A stretch of DNA of 34,456 nucleotides from Syntrophobacteraceae bacterium. GTDB taxonomy: Bacteria > Desulfobacterota > Syntrophobacteria > Syntrophobacterales > Syntrophobacteraceae. Under the pieces are notes generated by a model that was not told where the DNA came from, made no database searches, and saw nothing but the letters and a program-made list of their open reading frames with translations. Of this stretch, positions 15,103 through 25,884 are shown piece by piece. Positions within the stretch are counted from its first letter, which is position 1, and each line of letters starts with the position of its first letter. Location of the stretch: NCBI GenBank assembly GCA_013314815.1, contig JABUEY010000032.1, positions 1-34,456 of the forward strand, read 5' to 3'. Made by a program: the position numbers and the translations under genes.

Positions 15103-15204
15103 GCAGTTCGGAGGTGTGTGGGTGTATGGAGAGGCATGGCCTGGTCATGCGCGAATGGAATGTTTCGTGAGGCTTTCCCGGAAAAGGCTATGGAGTGAAT
15201 GTTC

Positions 15205-18200
15205 ATGAGTGAAAAAAATGCTTTGAGGCCAGTAACTGGCGCAGTCATGGTGGTCGGAGGCGGCATCGCCGGTATGCAGTCGGCTCTCGACCTGGCGGAT
15301 TCGGGCTATTATGTGTACCTGGTGGAGAAGGAGTCCTCCATCGGCGGAGTGATGGCACAACTGGACAAGACATTTCCGACCAACGATTGTGCCATGTGAA
15401 TTATCTCGCCCAAGCTGGTCGAGGTCGGCCGGCCTCTGAACATCGAGTTGCTCACTTTGACCGAAGTACAGGAGATTTCCGGGGAGCCGGGAGACTTCAG
15501 TGTGAAGCTCATCGAGAAGCCCCGCTTTATTGACCTTTCCAGGTGTACGGGCTGTGGTGAATGTGCCCGGGTCTGTCCGGTCGTAAAGAAGAACGAATAC
15601 GACATGGGGCTCAGCGAGCGCCGTGCGGCATTCAGGCGCTACGCACAGGCCGTCCCGGGGGCGTTTTCCATCGAGAAGCTGGGTATCTCTCCCTGCAAGG
15701 CCACCTGTCCCGCCCATATTTCGGTTCAGGGATACGTTGCCCTGGCGGCTGAAGGCAGGTACAGCGAGGCTCTGAAGCTTGTGAAGGAGCAGAATCCTCT
15801 GCCGGCCATCTGCGGCCGCGTCTGCCATCATCCTTGTGAATCGGCCTGCAAGCGGGGTGAGGTTGACGAACCGGTGGCCATCGATTCCATCAAGCGATTT
15901 ATTGCGGATCTGGATCTTCGTTCTGAAACGCGGTACGTGCCCGAGATCAAGCAAAGGCGTGAGGAGAAAGTGGCCGTGATCGGCGGCGGGCCGGGAGGCC
16001 TGACGTGCGCCTACTACCTGGCTATCGAGGGCTACCGGGTGACCGTGTTCGAGAAGCTGCCCGTGCTGGGCGGGATGCTCCGGGTAGGCATTCCTTCCTA
16101 CCGGCTGCCGCGCGACATCATAGAAGCCGAGATCCAGGTCATGCGGGACATGGGGATCGAGTTCAGGACGGGAGTCGAGATCGGCAAGGATGTTACCATT
16201 TCCATGCTTCGCAAGGAGGGATACAAGGCCTTCTTCATGGCCGTCGGTGCTCATGAATGCAAGATCTTGGGAATACCCGGCGAGGACCTCGAAGGAGTCT
16301 ACCCGGGGGTAAATTTCCTGCGGGACGTGAATCTTGGAAAGGAAGTGAAGCTGGGCGACCGAGTAGCCGTGGTCGGCGGCGGGAATGTGGCCATGGATGC
16401 TGTGAGGACGGCTCTCCGCAACGGTTCATCCAAGCCTTTCATCATTTACCGTCGAAGCATCCATGAAATGCCCGCCAACGAGGAAGAGATCGAAGAATGC
16501 CAGGAAGAGGGCATCGAGATCATGACTCTTACCAACCCCAAGCGAATCATCGGGGAAGGTGGCAGGGTCAAAGCGGTGGAATGCGTGAGGATGCAGTTGG
16601 GGGCTCCAGATGCCAGCGGGCGGCGTCGTCCGGAGGTGATCCCCGGTTCGGAATTCATCATGGAGGTGGATGCAGTGATTCCGGCCATCGGCCAGGAATC
16701 AGACTGGGCGTGCCTGACGGATGAATGCGCTTGTCAACTGACGGACTGGGGGACCATGCGGGTCGATCCCCTGACGCTTCAAAGTCACGACGAAGACATA
16801 TTTGCCGGCGGAGACGCCGTGACAGGGCCCAAGACGGTGATCGAGGCCATTGCTGCGGGCAAGCAGGCGGCTATATCCATCGACCGGTTCATCCGAGGTG
16901 TGGATTTGCGGGAGGGTCGGGAGAAGGAATGGAAGGCGATCGAGGAGGTGAGAACGGAGGGCTACGACCGGATTCCTCGTGAGCGAATGCCTCGCCTTGC
17001 ACCCGGGGAACGCACCTCTGGCTTTGACGAGGTGCAGCTGGGTTTCAACGAGGAGCAGGTGCGCAAAGAGGCGCAGCGGTGTTTGAGTTGCAGTGTGTGT
17101 TCGGAATGTTACCAGTGCGTCGAGGCCTGTCTGGCCAATGCGGTGGTGCACGAAGACCGAGCCAGGGAGCGCGAGGTCCGCGTGGGTGCCGTGATAGCGG
17201 CTCCAGGATTTCAGCCCTTCGATCCCACCCTCTACGACACGTATGCCTATTCGAAGTTCCCCAATGTGGTGACTTCGATGGAATTCGAACGGATTCTTTC
17301 CGCTTCGGGTCCGACCCAGGGGCACCTGGTAAGGCCTTCCGACCATCGTGAACCCAAGCGGGTGGCATGGCTGCAGTGCGTTGGTTCGAGGGACATTCAC
17401 CACTGTGACCACAAGTACTGCTCGGGTGTGTGCTGCATGTATGCCATCAAGGAGGCGGTGATTGCGAAGGAGCATTCTCATGGGGATCTGGACACCGCCA
17501 TTTTCTTCATGGACATGCGCACCCACGGTAAGGACTTCGAGAGGTATTACAACCGGGCCAGGGATCAGCATGGAGTCCGTTTTGTGCGATCCCGGGTGCA
17601 CAGTATCGAACCCGTTCCCGGTTCCGACGATCTCGAGATCAATTATGCGACCGAAACAGGCACTGTCCAGAGCGAACAGTTCGACATGGTTGTGCTGTCC
17701 GTCGGATTCGAGACTGCGAATTCCGTGGTGGACCTCGCCGGGCGGCTCGACCTCAAACTGAACGACAACCTCTTCTGTGAGACGTCGTCCTTCGAACCTG
17801 TTTCCGGAAGCCGTCCGGGTATCTTTGTTTGTGGAGCCTTCCAGTCGCCGAAGGATATTCCCCAGTCGGTGGTGGAAGCCAGCGCTGCGGCCGCAGCGGC
17901 AGGCAGCCTGCTTTCCTCCGCCCGCGGTTCTCTTGTCAGGGAAAGGGAGCTTCCGCCGCAGCTCAATGTCGTTGGGGAGCGGCCTCGAGTCGGTGTTTTC
18001 GTCTGCCACTGCGGGATCAACATCAGCGGCGTGGTGGACGTTAAGGGTGTCCGGGATTATGCACGTGATCTTCCCTTTGTCGAATACGTGTCTGACAACC
18101 TCTACACCTGTTCCCAGGATACCCAGGTGGTGATGAGGGAAGCGATCGAGGAGCACAAGCTCAACCGTATTGTCGTTGCAGCCTGTACCCCTCGCACCCA

Positions 18201-19635
18201 CGAGGCTCTTTTTCAGGAAACCATGTCTGACGCCGGCCTCAACAAGTACCTCTTCGAGATGGCCAACATACGGAACCAGGATTCATGGGTTCACAGCACC
18301 AACCCCGAGATGGCGACCGAGAAGGCCAAGGATCTCCTGCGTATGGCCGTTTCCAAGGTCGTGCTCCTCGAACCGCTCCAGGAACCTGAGTTGAGCGTCA
18401 ACCAGAAGGCTTTGATCATCGGCGGCGGTGTTGCAGGGATGGTGGCTGCCAGGACCATTGCGGATCAGGGTTACCCCGTGTTCCTGGTGGAAAGATCAGA
18501 CCGCCTGGGCGGGCAGGCACTCAGCCTCTTCAAGACCTGGAAGGGTGAAGACATTCAGGGATACCTGAAAGAGCTCACTCGGAGCGTGATGGACCATCCG
18601 CAAATCACGGTTTACCTCTCCACCTCCGTTACAAACGTGGAAGGGTTTGTGGGTAATTTCAAGACCACTATCCTCAACGGGGGGACTCCGGAAGTGCTCG
18701 AACACGGTGTTGCCGTTATTGCAACGGGCGGCAAGGAACACCGGCCTACTGAATATCTGTACGGCGGGGATCCGCGGGTGATCACCCACCAGGAACTGGA
18801 CCGCAGGTTCATGAACGGGGATGCCGCGCTCAAGGATGTGCGGACTGCTGTTTTCATCCAGTGTGTCGGATCGCGTGAGCCTGACCGGCCCTATTGCAGC
18901 CGGGTATGTTGCAGTCATACTCTGGAGAGCGCTCTGGAGCTGAAAAAACTGAACCCGGGCAGTGATGTCTACGTGCTTTACAGGGATCTCAGGTCTTATG
19001 GGGAGCGGGAGGCTCTTTACCTGGAAGCTCGGAGGAAAGGGGTGATGTTCGTTCGCTTCAACCTGGATGACAAACCCAAGGTGGAAGCAACCGACGGGAA
19101 GCTGGTGGTCACAGTAAAGGACCATGTACTCCAACGGCCCATCAGGTTGACTCCGGACCTCCTGACTCTCGCCACGGCCATACTGCCCAACGAAACCGAG
19201 GAACTGGGACAGTTCTTCAAGGTGCCTGCCAACGAGGACGGATTCTTCATTGAGGCCCATGCCAAGCTGCGGCCGGTGGAATTTGCCACAGATGGTGTCT
19301 TCCTTTGTGGACTTGCACACTATCCCAAGCCACTGGATGAGAGTGTTGCCCAGGCGCAGGCGGCTGCATCGCGTGCGGCCACCCTTCTGGCACGCCAGAC
19401 CATTCAGTTCAGCGGTATGGTTGCCGTTACCAACCAGCTGCTCTGCAGCAGTTGCGCCACCTGCGTAAACATATGTCCGTATTCTGCTCCTCGTTTCAAC
19501 GACAAGGGAAAGGCGGAGATCAACCCCGCTCTGTGCAAGGGCTGCGGTCTGTGCGTTGCGTCGTGCCGATCAGGTGCCATTCGTCTGCGCGGGTTCGATG
19601 ACGCCCAGATCTTTGCAATGATCGAGAATATCTAG
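15205..19635 (+). CDS. hdrA: Giant selenocysteine-containing HdrA with inserted GltD-type module
   Basis: Reading the in-frame TGA at 15397-15399 as selenocysteine (residue 65) gives 1476 residues. U65 sits in [14 protein letters not shown], where HdrA proteins carry Cys or Sec. In order: first HdrA FAD-binding half (GGGIAGM at about 15-21) with U65; a [4Fe-4S] site C114-C124; an inserted GltD-like NAD(P)H/FAD module (about 160-600) with CKATCP, GGGPGGL and GGGNVAMD; Cys cluster CLSCSVC (from 626) and the rest of HdrA with the YCSGVCCM motif; a second HdrA module (about 930-1400) opening with [11 protein letters not shown] and GGGVAGM (about 1070); and two C-terminal [4Fe-4S] motifs (from 1414 and 1445). 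The second module has no Sec or Cys counterpart of U65. ATG 15205 is chosen because GGAG lies 9 bp upstream; ATG 15199 is the alternative. It should be the flavin bifurcating subunit of a cytosolic Hdr-Flx complex encoded by the next five genes. Confidence 0.93.
15397..15436 (+). promoter_or_regulatory. UGA selenocysteine codon and candidate SECIS of hdrA
   Basis: The TGA is followed by GAGGTC/GGCCTC arms (15421-15436; six pairs, one G-U) around a GGCC loop. The loop lies 28-31 nt after the UGA, within the window typical of bacterial SECIS elements. Function requires SelB and tRNA-Sec, which are not in this window. Confidence 0.65.
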
Positions 19636-19740: not shown

Positions 19741-20175
19741 ATGTCCGAGTGGGAACCTAAGATAGTCGCCTTCTTGTGCAACTGGTGTTCGTACGGAGCA
19801 GCGGACCTTGCCGGAGTCAGCCGGTTGCAGTATCCGGCCAATATCCGAATCATAAGAGTTCCGTGTTCAGGCCGGGTAAATCCCAAGTTCATACTGGCCG
19901 CGTTTCGAAGCGGAGCGGATGGAGTATGGGTTTCAGGTTGTCACCCTGGAGATTGCCACTACATCGAAGGCAACCTGTATGCAAGGCGCAAGTTCGCTCT
20001 CCTGAACAGCCAGCTGGAATATACGGGAATAGTGGAACCGGGACGGCTTCATTTCTCCTGGATTTCCTCCGCGGAAGCGACCAAATTTGCAGAAGTGGCT
20101 CGAGGAGTTATTGATGCGGTGAAAGCGGCAGGCCCTGCCCGACATTTCATCAAAAAGCAAGCTGAGGTGGCATAG
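19741..20175 (+). CDS. flxD: MvhD/FlxD-type [2Fe-2S] electron-transfer subunit
   Basis: The 144-residue protein belongs to the MvhD (F420-non-reducing hydrogenase delta subunit) family, which passes electrons from an electron-input module to HdrA. The conserved Cys are visible in CNWCSYGAADLAG (C13, C16), VPCSGR (C42) and GCHPGDCHY (C67, C72). AGGAGA lies 8 bp before the ATG. With FlxA-C genes and no hydrogenase large subunit nearby, it fits FlxD of Hdr-Flx complexes. The next gene starts directly after its stop. Confidence 0.92.
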   Translation: MSEWEPKIVAFLCNWCSYGAADLAGVSRLQYPANIRIIRVPCSGRVNPKFILAAFRSGADGVWVSGCHPGDCHYIEGNLYARRKFALLNSQLEYTGIVEPGRLHFSWISSAEATKFAEVARGVIDAVKAAGPARHFIKKQAEVA

Positions 20176-21126
20176 ATGCGAGAATATACCGAAAGGATTA
20201 GAGAAGCTGCAAAGCGCCTGTTATCCGAGCAGCGGGTGGATACCGTGATCGGTTTTCGAAGAGGGACCGTTCCTTTCATGAACGAGCCTTTTCTGGTAAA
20301 GAGTGTCGATCAGGTGGATCAGCTCTACTGGGACAGCAACTGCGGGATCAACCTGGCCAACTATCTGCCTAAAAGGACGGACAGGGTTGCCGTCGTCGCC
20401 AAGGGATGCGATTCGCGCAATATCGTCGTTCACCTTCTCGAAAACCAAATCAAGAGGGACCAGCTTTATATCCTGGGGGCACCCTGCCGCGGCATGGTGG
20501 ACAAGCGCCGCATGATGGCGGATCTCAAGGGAAAGGAACCCCTGCATGCGGAAGAAAACGGTAAGGAAATCAAGGTGTCCGGTCGCGGCTTCCAGGTGAC
20601 CTTCGACCGGCAGACCTACCTTCAGAGCAACTGTGCCATCTGCACTCACCGCAACCCGGTCGTCTATGATGAACTCCTGGGCGATCCGGTCGAGGAACAG
20701 CAGGGCGTCGACCGGTACCCGGACGTGAGGCGGATCGAGGCGATGTCTGTGGACGAGCGGTGGAGGTATTTCCAGGAACTGATTGCTCCCTGCATCCGCT
20801 GTTACGCTTGCAGGAATGCCTGCCCTCTGTGCTACTGCCCCACCTGTTTTGTGGATGAATCCCGGCCCCAATGGGTTGGCAAGACCATCGACCCCACCGA
20901 CACGCTCACCTTCCATTTTCTGAGGGCCTATCACGTGGCGGGGCGCTGCACGGATTGCGGGTCCTGTGAGAGGGCCTGCCCGGTGGGTATCGAGGTGCGA
21001 AAGTTTACCAAGAAGCTGGAAAAGGAAGTGAAGGAGCTTTACGGATATGAAGCCGGCGTGACTCCCGATCAGCGGCCTCCGCTGGACACCTTTAAGCCGG
21101 GCGATCCTGAACCCTTTATCAAGTGA
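20176..21126 (+). CDS. flxC: FlxC-like iron-sulfur protein
   Basis: The 316-residue protein has an N-terminal FrhB/F420-dehydrogenase-beta-like region (AKGCDSRNIVVHLLE, CRGMVDKRR, CAICTHRNP). Two C-terminal ferredoxin-type motifs follow, CIRCYACRNACPLCYCPTC near 210-230 and CTDCGSCERACP near 260. It probably relays electrons between the NADH-binding FlxA and FlxD/HdrA in the cytosol. A GAGGTG ribosome-binding site lies inside the end of flxD. The family is clear; assigning it to FlxC rather than another beta-like Flx subunit rests on gene order. Confidence 0.8.
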   Translation: MREYTERIREAAKRLLSEQRVDTVIGFRRGTVPFMNEPFLVKSVDQVDQLYWDSNCGINLANYLPKRTDRVAVVAKGCDSRNIVVHLLENQIKRDQLYILGAPCRGMVDKRRMMADLKGKEPLHAEENGKEIKVSGRGFQVTFDRQTYLQSNCAICTHRNPVVYDELLGDPVEEQQGVDRYPDVRRIEAMSVDERWRYFQELIAPCIRCYACRNACPLCYCPTCFVDESRPQWVGKTIDPTDTLTFHFLRAYHVAGRCTDCGSCERACPVGIEVRKFTKKLEKEVKELYGYEAGVTPDQRPPLDTFKPGDPEPFIK

Positions 21127-21178: not shown

Positions 21179-22231
21179 ATGTCGGATATCTATATTTCCA
21201 GGGGCAAGTTCCCCGAAATCATAGGGCAGCTCATGGCTCGCTACCGGGTATACGCGCCGGTGCTCAAGGGAGAGTACCATGAGTTTGCCAAGATAGAGAA
21301 GACGGAAGAGGCGGACCTCGGTTACCAGAATACACGCCTCTCGCCCAAGGGACTCTTCCATCCTCATGCCGAAAGGATGTTTGAGTATTCCCTGGTCAAG
21401 GATGATCCGCAGGCGGGAATATTGAAAGAGGCCCCCAAGGATTTCTCGCCGCGGGTTGTATTGGGGATTCGTCCCTGCGACGCGAAGGCGTTCCAGCTGG
21501 ACGACGTGAACTTTGATACAACCGCGTACCAGGACCCTTGGTGGGTAAGGAGAAGACAAACGACGACCCTCATCGGCCTGGCCTGCAACGAACCCTGCGG
21601 CACGTGCTTCTGCACATCTCTCGGCACGGGCCCCTTCGACACGGCCGGCCTCGACGTTCTGCTGGTAGATACGGGAGAGGGTTACACCGCTCAGGTGCTC
21701 ACTCAGAAAGGCAAGGATGTCGTCGGCATCACCTCGGGATGGGAATCTGTATCCAGAACCGTATCCGAAAAGATGGAAGGCCTCAGGAAATCCGCTGAAG
21801 ACAGTCTCGGCAGGCAATTCGACTTTGATCCCATCAAGCAGAAGGATATGCTGGAACTCTTCAATGCGTCTTTCTGGGACGAAGTCCAGTTTGCGTGCAT
21901 CAATTGCGGGACCTGTACTTTCCTCTGCCCCACCTGCTGGTGTTTCGATATCCAGGACGAGGTTTGGGGTGATAAGGGAGACCGCATAAGGTTGTGGGAC
22001 TCCTGCATGTTTCCTCTTTTCACCTTTCATGGCTCGGGGCACAATCCACGAAGTCAGAAACTGCAGCGGGTCAGGCAGCGCTTCATGCATAAACTCAAAT
22101 ACTATCCAGACAAGTACCACAACGGTGCGGCCTGTGTGGGATGCGGCCGTTGCGTAAAATTCTGTCCGGTCAACATAGACATACGAGAGGTAGTACGTCG
22201 GATGTCGGCTACCTGCGTATGTCCGGCTTAG
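21179..22231 (+). CDS. flxB: FlxB-like 4Fe-4S dicluster protein (sulfhydrogenase beta / AsrA-like)
   Basis: The 350-residue protein resembles the beta subunits of soluble sulfhydrogenases and anaerobic sulfite reductase subunit A. Features are VVLGIRPCDAKAF, ACNEPCGTCFC, then two [4Fe-4S] motifs, CINCGTCTFLCPTC (from residue 240) and CVGCGRCVKFCPVNID (from residue 319). Such subunits link an FAD/NAD(P)H protein to downstream clusters. AAGGAAGGG at 21162-21170 supports the ATG at 21179. A second ATG at 21171 is out of frame. Confidence 0.85.
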   Translation: MSDIYISRGKFPEIIGQLMARYRVYAPVLKGEYHEFAKIEKTEEADLGYQNTRLSPKGLFHPHAERMFEYSLVKDDPQAGILKEAPKDFSPRVVLGIRPCDAKAFQLDDVNFDTTAYQDPWWVRRRQTTTLIGLACNEPCGTCFCTSLGTGPFDTAGLDVLLVDTGEGYTAQVLTQKGKDVVGITSGWESVSRTVSEKMEGLRKSAEDSLGRQFDFDPIKQKDMLELFNASFWDEVQFACINCGTCTFLCPTCWCFDIQDEVWGDKGDRIRLWDSCMFPLFTFHGSGHNPRSQKLQRVRQRFMHKLKYYPDKYHNGAACVGCGRCVKFCPVNIDIREVVRRMSATCVCPA

Positions 22232-22262: not shown

Positions 22263-23105
22263 GTGAACAACCCTTACTTGCCTTATCCGGTACGCATTGA
22301 TTCCGTTGTGACGGAAACGGAAGATCGTAATCTGAAGACCTTCAAGCTTGTCTTTCTCAATCCGGAGGACGAGCAGAAGTTCAAGTATAATCCGGGGCAG
22401 TTCGCGGAACTGTCCATTGCCGGTCTTGGAGAGATCCCCATTGGTATCGCTACATCCCCCACGGAGAAGGGATTCATCAAGTTTACGGTGAACAAGGTCG
22501 GCAAGGTGACCAACCATCTTCATAACATGAAGGAAGGGGATATCATGGGTGTGCGGGGGCCGTTGGGCAACTGGTACCCCTGGGATGCCCTCGAAGGGAA
22601 AAACGTGGTGATCATCGGCGGCGGTTTTGCTTTTACCACCCTCCGGTCATCCATCGTGTACATGCTCGACCCTGCCAACCGAAGCCGCTTCGGGGATATA
22701 ACGGTGGTATACGGAGCGCGTTCACCCGGACTGCTCCTTTACAAGGACGAACTGGCGGCATGGGAACAGCGCAAAGACATCAACATGCACATCACGGTCG
22801 ACGGCACAGACGATCCCAACTGGAAGTACAACGTGGGATTCGTCCCCGCTGTAACCAAGCAGAAGGCGCCCAGTGCCGAGAACTCCTATGCGATCATTTG
22901 CGGACCCCCAATAATGATCAAGTTTACCCTGCCGGTTTTGACCGAACTTGGGTTTCCTCCTGAACGGATCATATCCAGCCTGGAAATGCGGATGAAATGT
23001 GGAATCGGCATATGCGGCCGTTGTAATATCGGTTCCGAATATGTGTGCAAGGATGGGCCGGTCTTTACTCTGGAACAGCTGTCCAAATTGCCCAACGAAT
23101 ACTGA
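22263..23105 (+). CDS. flxA: FlxA-like FAD/NAD(P)H and [2Fe-2S] oxidoreductase
   Basis: The 280-residue protein has the ferredoxin-NADP reductase fold of hydrogenase gamma / dihydroorotate dehydrogenase K subunits: PGQFAEL for flavin binding, the IIGGGFAFTTLRS dinucleotide segment, CGPPIM, and a C-terminal [2Fe-2S] site C246-X4-C251-X2-C254-X7-C262. It should be the entry point for NAD(P)H in the complex. The GTG start is supported by GGAGG 7 bp upstream. The following 228 bp gap holds only a weak 44-codon frame and a TTCCCGGGAA palindrome (23146-23155). Confidence 0.9.
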   Translation: MNNPYLPYPVRIDSVVTETEDRNLKTFKLVFLNPEDEQKFKYNPGQFAELSIAGLGEIPIGIATSPTEKGFIKFTVNKVGKVTNHLHNMKEGDIMGVRGPLGNWYPWDALEGKNVVIIGGGFAFTTLRSSIVYMLDPANRSRFGDITVVYGARSPGLLLYKDELAAWEQRKDINMHITVDGTDDPNWKYNVGFVPAVTKQKAPSAENSYAIICGPPIMIKFTLPVLTELGFPPERIISSLEMRMKCGIGICGRCNIGSEYVCKDGPVFTLEQLSKLPNEY

Positions 23106-23333
23106 GAAGCATCGAGATGGGAGAGAAGTCGTATTCCGCCTGCCCTTCCCGGGAATACCGCCCGGCCCCTGACGGCTGTGATCCGGTGGATGCAAGTGTG
23201 CACGGCGACTATCTTCACGAACCTCCGACGCTCCCTGCTGCTGAGAACTGAAAATTTCTTTTAAAAGACAGACCGGTATGTTACAAAAACCAGAAGTATT
23301 ATGCATTCAGAGAAAGATTAGGGGAGAAAACTT

Positions 23334-24557
23334 ATGGAGCCATTGTTGCTAACCAAGCGTGAAAAACGCAAATTGGCCAGCCAGTATGCCGACTTGTGTC
23401 TTACATGCGGCACCTGTGCAGGCGGCTGCCCGGTTACCGGCGTCGACGGACTGGATGTCCGCAAGGCCGTGCGCCTGGCATTGCTCGGCATGGACCAGGA
23501 ACTGATCGATTCCAAGTTTCCCTGGGTTTGTACGTTGTGTGGCCGTTGCGAATATGCCTGCCCGATGAACATCGACCTGCTGGCCCTGCTCAGGTCCGCC
23601 CGTGGCATGCGGGCCAGGGACAAGGTGCCCGGCGTGCTGCACAAGGGTGTCGAGATGTGCCTCAAGACGGGCAACAACGTCGGGATCCCCAAGGATGACT
23701 TCGTGTTCCTGCTGCAGGATCTGGGTGCGGAACTGGCTGAGGAACTCCCCGGTTTCGAAGTTCCCGTTGACAAAAAGGGAGCCAAGTACCTGTTCACGAT
23801 CAACTCCAAGGAACCTTTCGCCGAACCCGAAGACATGATGTACTGGTGGCGAATCCTTTATGCCGCCAATGAATCCTGGACCACCACATCCGAAAACTGG
23901 GAAGGGGTCAACTGGGGGCTCTTCACCGGAGACGATGCGGCCATGAAGGAAATCGTGGGGCGTATCGTCAAGAATTACAAGGAACTCGGCTGCGAGTACC
24001 TCGTCTTACCCGAGTGAGGGCACGCATACTATGCGACCAGGCTTGGTCTGCAAAAGTGGTATGCCGACGAGGGTGTGAAGTTCGTGAGCATTCACGACCT
24101 GCTGAAACAGTACATCGAAGAGGGTCGTATCAAGCTCGACAAGTCGATCCATCATGAACTCACCACCTATCATGATCCGTGCAATTACGGGCGCAAGGGT
24201 GAACGCGCATTCGGTCACGGCTATTACGAGGAGCCGCGTTGGGTGACTCAGCAGTGCTGCGAGAACTACGTCGAAATGTATCCCAACCGGGCCAACAATT
24301 TCTGTTGTGGGGCCGGCGGTGGCGCATGGGCTGCGCCCTACGTCGAGGAAAGGATTTTCTACGGCCGGGTAAAAGCCAAGCAAATCAAGGATACGGGGGC
24401 CAAGCTGCTGATCGCTCCCTGTCACAACTGCCGTGACCAGATCATGAAGAGCCTCCGCAAGGAGTACGACTTCATGGACGTCGAAGTCAAGTACCTGTGG
24501 GAGCTGGTAGCCGATTCTCTGGTTATGGAACCTCGGGAAGAAGCGGAAGAAGAGTAG
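23334..24557 (+). CDS. Selenocysteine-containing HdrD-like (HdrC-HdrB fusion) protein
   Basis: Reading TGA 24015-24017 as selenocysteine (residue 228) joins two in-frame halves into 407 residues. The N-terminus has HdrC-type [4Fe-4S] motifs, CLTCGTCAGGCP (C22-C32) and CTLCGRCEYACP (C66-C76). U228 lies in LVLPE-U-GHAYY, where relatives carry Cys in an ECGHA-type motif. The C-terminus has a complete CCG domain (C283, C324-C325-G, C363-X2-C366), as in heterodisulfide-reducing HdrB/HdrD. GGGGAG 8 bp before the ATG supports the start. It should be the disulfide-reducing end of the Hdr-Flx complex, since no separate hdrB or hdrC is present. The natural substrate is unknown; DsrC-like disulfides are one possibility. 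Confidence 0.9.
24015..24048 (+). promoter_or_regulatory. UGA selenocysteine codon and candidate SECIS of the HdrD-like gene
   Basis: After the TGA, GACCA/TGGTC arms (24035-24039 with 24044-24048) enclose a GGCT loop lying 23-26 nt downstream of the UGA. Position and G-rich loop resemble the candidate element in hdrA. Confidence 0.65.
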
Positions 24558-24581
24558 ATCCCGCGGTTGTCCGAAAAACAG

Positions 24582-24624
24582 GCCCCATCACACGTGAACG
24601 TGGTTGTATGGGGCTTTTTTCTTT
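24582..24624 (+). terminator. Intrinsic terminator of the hdr-flx operon
   Basis: GCCCCAT and ATGGGGC (24582-24588 with 24608-24614) form a strong stem followed by TTTTTTCTTT. It begins 24 bp after the stop of the HdrD-like gene and separates the operon from the next gene. Confidence 0.9.
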
Positions 24625-24660
24625 ATTGCCTGCAGTCGCGTCTGCGCAGAGTTGTGAGAC

Positions 24661-25884
24661 ATGAACAAGAAGAAAGAAGCCAGGAAGAAGGGGAAGAGCG
24701 ACATCGAGCTGAGCGTCGAAGAATCTCACGAACTCGGTATGATACTTGACCGATTGTCCGTGCAGAATCCGGAAGGTGAAAGCCTGAACAGCTATCTCGA
24801 ATCACTCGGTAAGACCCTCAGGAACCGGGAAAACCTCGCCGCCGCCCTCATCGAACGGCTCAGCCGAAACCCGTCGGAGGTTGGATACCGCACATTCATG
24901 TGGTTTCGGGATTTGCCGGCGGATCCCAGGGCGAGACGCATCGTGAAACAGGCTGGATACCGCTTTTTGCAAAAGGGTTTCGCCGACGAAGCCGATTCGG
25001 TGCAGACGGAAAAGGTGGTCCTGATCCAGAAAGAAGAGAGAACTCCCTCGGCTCATATGCTGCCTGTTCCGGGCGCCTTCTTCCTTCTTTCGGCACTGGT
25101 GTATGAACCTGGCAGTCCGGCCCCCACGGCGGTATCGGTCTTTGCCGAAGACCGTTTCCGCATGCTCAATGCCAAAGCGACGGAGAGCTCTCAGCGCCTG
25201 TACCGTGATTATCTGCGCAACATCGCCGCTCACGCGGAGAAGAAGCCCTGCAGGATTCCTCTCTGGCATGCGGCCCGCGTCTTTTTCGATATGCTCGGTT
25301 TTCACGGAGGCGAAGCGACCTCCCCCGAAGTCTCCATCGCAAGGAGAATATTCGACGATTTCCATGATCCCGGCAGGAAACCGTATGTTTACGAACTGAT
25401 GCCTCGTTTGGATCAGCCCCCGGAGTCGCTTCGAGCCATGGATCCGACGGAACTGCTCCACGCGGTGGATTCTCCCTGGCTGTATTTTACACGGGATGAA
25501 CTGCTCCCTTGGAGGCAGAAGATCCAGGAACTGGAGAGCCCTCTTCTTGTCGTCCCAAGGGAGATTCAGAGGGAGAGGGTCAAGGATGAGCTGGTCCGGG
25601 CGGCGGATGATCTTTGTTCCGGAAGGACCCGGGTGATGTTCCAGAGGTTTTTCGAAGAGTACGCCGTATACTTCAAACTGTCGGGCAAAGAAGAGTTGGC
25701 TGCGGATGCACTGGCAGTGGCCGATCATCTGCGGGGCACGGCGGATGCCGGTGAGAACCCCGCGGTTTTACGGCTCGTCATCCTCTCCATGCACCGTTAC
25801 TGGCCCGAGGACTTTGAAGGGCAGCAGGAGGACGGCGAAGGGGATCTGCGGCGATCGGAGTCCGGCCTGATCCTCCCCGGGTAG
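24661..25884 (+). CDS. Unrecognised 407-residue protein
   Basis: I do not recognise a family. The N-terminus is very basic (Lys/Arg-rich, residues 2-15). The rest is mixed alpha-rich soluble sequence with no membrane segment, signal peptide or metal-binding Cys pattern, and an acidic patch near the C-terminus (EGQQEDGEGDL). The composition, the length of the open frame and third-position GC like the neighbours make it a real gene. It lies just after the operon terminator with a weak ribosome-binding site (GTGAGAC). The segment around residues 60-100 has helical repeats that might suggest a scaffold, but this is only impression. Confidence 0.75.
   Translation: MNKKKEARKKGKSDIELSVEESHELGMILDRLSVQNPEGESLNSYLESLGKTLRNRENLAAALIERLSRNPSEVGYRTFMWFRDLPADPRARRIVKQAGYRFLQKGFADEADSVQTEKVVLIQKEERTPSAHMLPVPGAFFLLSALVYEPGSPAPTAVSVFAEDRFRMLNAKATESSQRLYRDYLRNIAAHAEKKPCRIPLWHAARVFFDMLGFHGGEATSPEVSIARRIFDDFHDPGRKPYVYELMPRLDQPPESLRAMDPTELLHAVDSPWLYFTRDELLPWRQKIQELESPLLVVPREIQRERVKDELVRAADDLCSGRTRVMFQRFFEEYAVYFKLSGKEELAADALAVADHLRGTADAGENPAVLRLVILSMHRYWPEDFEGQQEDGEGDLRRSESGLILPG

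Follow-up and report, generated by a model that had tools for sequence, protein, structure and literature searches.

The window analysed here, 34,456 nucleotides corresponding to positions 1 to 34,456 of contig JABUEY010000032.1 in the Syntrophobacteraceae bacterium assembly GCA_013314815.1, carries on its forward strand an hdrA(L)-flxD-flxC-flxB-flxA operon with an HdrD-like gene at its 3' end (Table 1). The latter opens with ATG 23334, preceded by AGGGGAG, closes with TAG at 24555-24557 and is interrupted by a TGA at codon 228, in the context LVLPE-U-GHAYY. Reading this codon as selenocysteine (Sec, U) gives a protein of 407 residues with zero further stops in the frame, in keeping with the original prediction that TGA 24015 lies within an HdrC-HdrB-type fusion. 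It had also been anticipated that most annotation pipelines would report two broken genes, and a mechanical list of open reading frames does precisely this, splitting the gene into 23334-24017 and 24075-24557.

Table 1. Features of the HdrD-like gene and of the operon that it closes.
Feature	Coordinates	Strand	Evidence or remark
HdrA with inserted GltD domain (HdrL type), predicted selenoprotein	15199..19635	+	TGA 15397-15399 in CAM-U
flxD / mvhD	19741..20175	+	PF02662, E 5.9e-51
flxC-like iron-sulfur protein	20176..21126	+	PF13183; synteny
flxB-like iron-sulfur protein (sulfhydrogenase beta type)	21179..22231	+	PF17179, E 5.3e-34; NF040829
flxA-like FAD/NAD(P) subunit	22263..23105	+	PF00175, PF00970, PF10418; NF006220
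HdrD-like (HdrC-HdrB-type fusion) selenoprotein gene	23334..24557	+	407 aa with Sec228
HdrC-like 2x[4Fe-4S] ferredoxin motif, Cys 22, 25, 28, 32 and 66, 69, 72, 76	23397..23561	+	Pfam Fer4_8
UGA codon, Sec228, motif P-E-U-G-H	24015..24017	+	TGA in 77/114 and Cys codon in 34/114 homologous loci
SECIS hairpin inside the coding sequence	24019..24065	+	apical stem GACCA/UGGUC 24035-24048, GGCU loop 24040-24043
His230, aligned with EtfD His583	24021..24023	+	His in 66/75 rows
Second CCG domain, Cys 283, 324, 325, 363, 366 (predicted noncubane [4Fe-4S] ligands)	24180..24431	+	Pfam CCG, PF02754

No separate hdrC and hdrB genes were found in the operon, which has the fused gene instead. In a further 12 UGA loci and in 2 Cys loci (motif DCGGG), together 14 of the named genome loci, FlxA is encoded directly upstream of the HdrD-like gene, and the full flxDCBA and HdrA set is present at the FlxA-linked loci wherever the contigs are long enough. 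Desulfacinum hydrothermale, a cultured relative, has both the orthologue and the operon (L137). The GltD insert in HdrA recurs at two Desulfacinum loci, the remaining loci giving no GltD match. The TGA of HdrA is itself followed by a hairpin, and the mechanical reading frame for this protein starts only at TTG 15448. Directly downstream of the HdrD-like gene, on the same strand, lies a 407-codon frame (24661-25884) with no Pfam or NCBIfam match. A scan for promoters and terminators gave no result.

The order of domains in the protein, an HdrC-like 2x[4Fe-4S] region followed by two CCG domains, is that of HdrD or HdrBC. Within a 75-row alignment Cys 66, 69, 72 and 76 of the ferredoxin motif are invariant, and Cys 22, 25, 28 and 32 occur in every row that has letters there. 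The best curated NCBIfam families are HmcF, TmcB and DsrK, which have their domains in the same order and an ECGH motif that aligns with the Sec site, but with Cys at the position of Sec; scores of 190.7, 180.4 and 165.7 bits, respectively, are far below the equivalog cut-offs of 750, 735 and 400 bits. The original description as HdrD-like needs correction in one detail: by score the protein is nearest to these three profiles and not to the HdrD of methanogens.

In order to judge the reading of codon 228 it is useful to consider its counterparts in homologues. Among 114 homologous loci, drawn from the source genome and its relatives and with two source-genome loci counted twice, the column holds TGA in 77, TGC or TGT in 34, and TTA, GGC and ACC in one each, so that Cys or Sec is kept in 111. 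Of 80 named genome loci, a set that partly overlaps the first so that the counts are not additive, 63 have TGA and the other 17 Cys. Both the aligned Cys and the recurring UGA for which the original prediction had called are therefore present, while the findings named as refuting it, a true stop with a separate downstream start in homologues or a lack of Cys/Sec conservation, were looked for and are absent. The protein is about as similar to its Cys homologues before the codon as after it (62% and 66% identity, respectively, for locus L060), and in the seven codons that follow the TGA orthologues differ 0, 8 and 82 times at positions 1, 2 and 3; such almost exclusively third-position changes indicate that these codons are translated.

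Three loci of one paralogue group (L068, L071 and L073) have Leu, Gly or Thr at 228 with Gly-His retained, from which it follows that the residue is dispensable in some family members. A remnant of the SECIS hairpin is still visible in L068 and L073. Exchange among Sec, Cys and other residues has occurred repeatedly, with 14 changes on the protein tree and, for Sec, 9 forced by well-supported branches; these counts are approximate because the tree was built by a quick method, carries no bootstrap values and has long branches for L005, L093 and L102. One Cys clade, with the motif DCGGG and without His230, comprises L003/L087, L080-L082, L084-L091, L203, L204, L206-L208 and L210-L215, and two of its members, L213 and L214, take the place of the Sec protein at the end of the Flx operon.

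The GGCY-loop hairpin that had been noted after the TGA is readily recognized, with GACCA-GGCU-UGGUC at 24035-24048 and a loop that begins at nt 23 past the UGA. In the UGA genes the loop starts 22-24 nt past this codon and the stems differ from one gene to another yet match (GACCA/UGGUC, CAACCCG/CGGGUUG, CAGUCCG/CGGACUG, GCGCUUCA/UGAAGCGC). When the apical 30 nt are compared with synonymous-codon shuffles UGA rows have a mean z of -3.03, with 97 of 99 below -1.5, as against a mean of -0.15 for Cys rows, with 6 of 42 below this value; most Cys genes have either no hairpin or a decayed one. In nine independent pairs taken from well-supported branches of the tree the hairpin tracks UGA in ∼7 and opposes it in ∼0. 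Folding of the whole hairpin relative to dinucleotide shuffles is only moderately significant here (z of -2.2 to -2.6) and non-significant for the paralogue L002, so that the SECIS claim rests on the apical 30-nt test and the paired tree comparison. An Rfam search over 23300-24700 produced no match up to E = 1; the absence of a family in this case says little.

The source genome encodes tRNA-Sec(UCA), SelA, SelB and SelD. SelA is split across contig ends, and of the two SelD copies (C33:38009-38932 and C98:578-1504) one has an in-frame TGA and the other lies inside a 743-codon open frame and is possibly a fusion. Because the codon column, the conservation on both sides, the hairpin test and the presence of this machinery all agree, decoding of UGA 24015 as Sec is close to certain, and on these comparative grounds 23334-24557 is one selenoprotein, with two broken genes ruled out. 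A true stop at 24015 with a restart at GTG 24075, in two genes or in a decayed pseudogene, would match the two listed reading frames, but is scarcely credible given the same UGA in 77 homologous loci and in-frame Cys codons in 34, the equal conservation on both sides, the third-position changes just past the TGA and the SECIS; the homologues already refute it. Only marginally less improbable is that the UGA is read as Cys by a SelB*/selC* tRNA-Cys system, of the kind known from Syntrophobacterales and Desulfobacterales. The genome does contain a second SelB-like gene with a tRNA-Sec-like tRNA-Cys(GCA) upstream and an MvhD-like frame between the two (G000:C208:1020-4244; L119, L127), a locus that fits the selC*/SelB* pairs described from Syntrophobacterales (PMC7609411). 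However, the GCA anticodon pairs with UGU/UGC and not with UGA, and canonical tRNA-Sec(UCA), together with SelA and SelD, is present. Other readings of UGA, such as Trp, were rejected since the column is Cys in homologues and Sec machinery is available.

An AlphaFold2 model calculated from the 75-row alignment (pLDDT 91.3, pTM 0.90) has as its closest solved structure EtfD of Mycobacterium smegmatis (PDB 9ojn), with which it superposes over nearly its full length (VIA-align Z 26.5, 366 residues, rmsd 2.6). Values of Z of about 20 are obtained with HdrB of three methanogens for residues 150-399, a region that shares with HdrB/HdrBC (5odc, 8rvu, 7bkb) both the fold and the five Cys of cluster 2. 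The assignment of Sec to a site where relatives carry ECGH, as originally predicted, is thus upheld by homologue codons, SECIS, Sec machinery and a model that superposes on both EtfD and HdrB. EtfD also combines an HdrC-like region and two CCG domains in one chain but has, in addition, a membrane domain, which the HdrD-like protein lacks. In EtfD C581 and C584 bind a linear [3Fe-4S] cluster, and H583 and Cys637/672/673/709/712 bind the noncubane one (PMC13083937). All of the ligands of the second cluster are matched, Cys637, 672, 673, 709, 712 and His583 by C283, C324, C325, C363, C366 and H230, whereas those of the linear cluster (Cys 503, 538, 581, 584) are not, with U228 at C581, A231 at C584 and no conserved Cys at the remaining domain-1 ligand positions. 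The underlying phmmer alignment pairs E227-U228-G229-H230-A231 with T580-C581-P582-H583-C584, and profile alignments with HdrB of related genomes (HH probabilities of 97.5-98.2) match the first and second Cys of the domain-1 CxxC with residue 228 and A231, respectively. The new alignment therefore equates U228 with the first Cys of this CxxC and with EtfD Cys581, and His230 with EtfD His583; the equivalent Cys in the source genome's own DsrK is found in ECGHMW.

Cys 283, 324, 325 and 363 are invariant and Cys366 is present in 74 of the 75 rows, all of them aligned with EtfD and HdrB, and the profile alignment shows no conserved Cys in the HdrD-like family at the other HdrB cluster-1 positions. 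Rather than five Cys in each CCG domain, and hence the two noncubane clusters of HdrB, the protein has five in domain 2 and residue 228 alone in domain 1; since no other ligands remain in the first domain a single noncubane cluster is expected, in the second. The description of the first CCG half as degenerate was correct but understated, as residue 228 is the sole cluster-ligand position remaining there. In the model U228 and Cys363 each directly precede a helix (229-242 and 364-377), which fits a duplicated CCG fold. Alignment and fold together suggest that Sec228 adjoins the single domain-2 noncubane cluster. At the level of alignment the check on HdrB that had been recommended is positive, residue 228 matching a cluster-ligand Cys beside the noncubane cluster.

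Sec in this family is already known, from the literature of 2006 at the latest. Five 'Fe-S oxidoreductase (GlpC)' selenoproteins were reported in that year (PMC1794560), HdrD4 of Desulfobacterium autotrophicum followed in 2009 (PMC2702500), and a Sec-containing 'Fe-S oxidoreductase-like (GlpC)' protein with the motif UGH is listed in a 2026 review (PMC13188914). The present protein has in common with them the U-G-H motif, the COG0247-type Fe-S oxidoreductase character, an origin in Deltaproteobacteria and the company of hdrA and frhD/mvhD, and its gene likewise has an in-frame UGA in U-G-H aligned with Cys homologues and a bacterial SECIS right after it. The operons differ, however, the published one being glpC-hdrA-frhD-frhG-frhA while the HdrD-like gene closes hdrA-flxDCBA. 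A second HdrD-like type in the source genome, on contig C191, is 64% identical and also has UGA; in 31 loci genes of this kind precede hdrA and mvhD, an arrangement (HdrD-HdrA-MvhD) that corresponds to the published glpC-hdrA-frhD operons (PMC1794560). The other relevant system is the FlxABCD-HdrABC NADH dehydrogenase/heterodisulfide reductase, encoded by hdrCBA-flxDCBA, in which NADH oxidation is described as bifurcating to ferredoxin and DsrC (PMC12125255). The succession of hdrA and then flxD-C-B-A is shared with it, but here one fused 3'-end selenoprotein replaces HdrC and HdrB, and HdrA is set apart by its GltD insert and by being itself a predicted selenoprotein. In the literature searched, covering few subscription journals, no paper places Sec relative to the noncubane cluster and a Sec protein closing an Flx operon is unreported. 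These two elements are added here, and together they suggest the mechanism proposed below.

Most likely the HdrD-like protein supplies the disulfide side of an NADH-dependent Flx-Hdr complex and carries Sec228 beside its single noncubane cluster. We regard the decoding of Sec (by comparison), the homology, the ligand pattern and the operon as shown; complex formation, bifurcation, the three-dimensional position of Sec at the cluster, the acceptor and the chemistry are inferred, as follows. SelB-dependent reading of UGA 24015 as Sec gives a single 407-residue selenoprotein, which would serve within a cytoplasmic Flx-Hdr complex as the subunit of HdrC-HdrB type. There FlxA would accept electrons from NAD(P)H and FlxB/C/D would relay them to the FAD of HdrA (HdrL), which would split them, one going to ferredoxin and one passing through the two N-terminal cubane clusters of the HdrD-like protein to the noncubane [4Fe-4S] cluster held by Cys283/324/325/363/366. 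Sec228, at the position of the first cluster-1 CxxC Cys of HdrB, immediately before a helix and two residues from His230, would complete the active site with its selenol in place of a second noncubane cluster. The acceptor, either DsrC or a thiol carrier like it, would have its disulfide (or trisulfide) attacked by the selenol and would receive two electrons, one at a time, from the neighbouring noncubane cluster. Taken as a whole, a SelB-read selenoprotein that acts as the HdrCB-type subunit of Flx-Hdr and reduces an acceptor with a selenol and one noncubane cluster, we consider this explanation probable, though well short of assured. More tentative is the notion of a hybrid active site, in which a Sec selenol stands in for one HdrB-type noncubane cluster and works with the remaining one in an NADH-driven bifurcating complex, with repeated Sec/Cys/other exchange. 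L068, L071 and L073, which do without Sec or Cys yet keep Gly-His, count against an active-site role for Sec.

In the strongest rival to such a role Sec228 serves the domain-2 noncubane cluster, either as a structural ligand through a selenolate-iron bond or by tuning its potential, and the protein would be an electron relay, as EtfD is believed to be, and not a disulfide reductase. That EtfD, at a Z of 26.5, is the closest solved structure speaks for a relay, as does the match of His230 to the His ligand that is said to render the EtfD cluster non-catalytic (PMC13083937), a property that by analogy could extend to the HdrD-like protein. Nevertheless, the Flx-Hdr arrangement is retained in the operon and its output is believed to be a disulfide carrier, and 9 of the 75 alignment rows keep Cys at position 228 without His230. 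Sec is, moreover, mostly retained where a nucleophile is needed, and we regard a relay function as unlikely. As for the acceptor in the preferred scheme, DsrC is encoded in the source genome, and nearly all relatives that have a close UGA orthologue encode it too, but it is the leading candidate only, because it was not detected in G060 and G096, two genomes of one family, both incomplete, in which a UGA homologue is present. Neither was DsrC found in G001 and G049, also incomplete assemblies, which carry UGA orthologues. Some other thiol-disulfide carrier or protein partner may thus take its place, and the complex might work in the reverse direction as well (confurcation); this we hold to be a serious possibility, if on balance a doubtful one. 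Co-occurrence with DsrC is weak evidence either way since most genomes of these orders have it.

Once the UGA is read as Sec, an energy-conserving complex of wide distribution among sulfate reducers and syntrophs regains what is likely its output subunit. As the aligned Cys occurs in DsrK, the role of Sec228 would bear on DsrK-type handling of sulfur substrates as well, and the existence of natural Sec/Cys pairs that otherwise resemble each other in sequence makes this residue a practical one to test.
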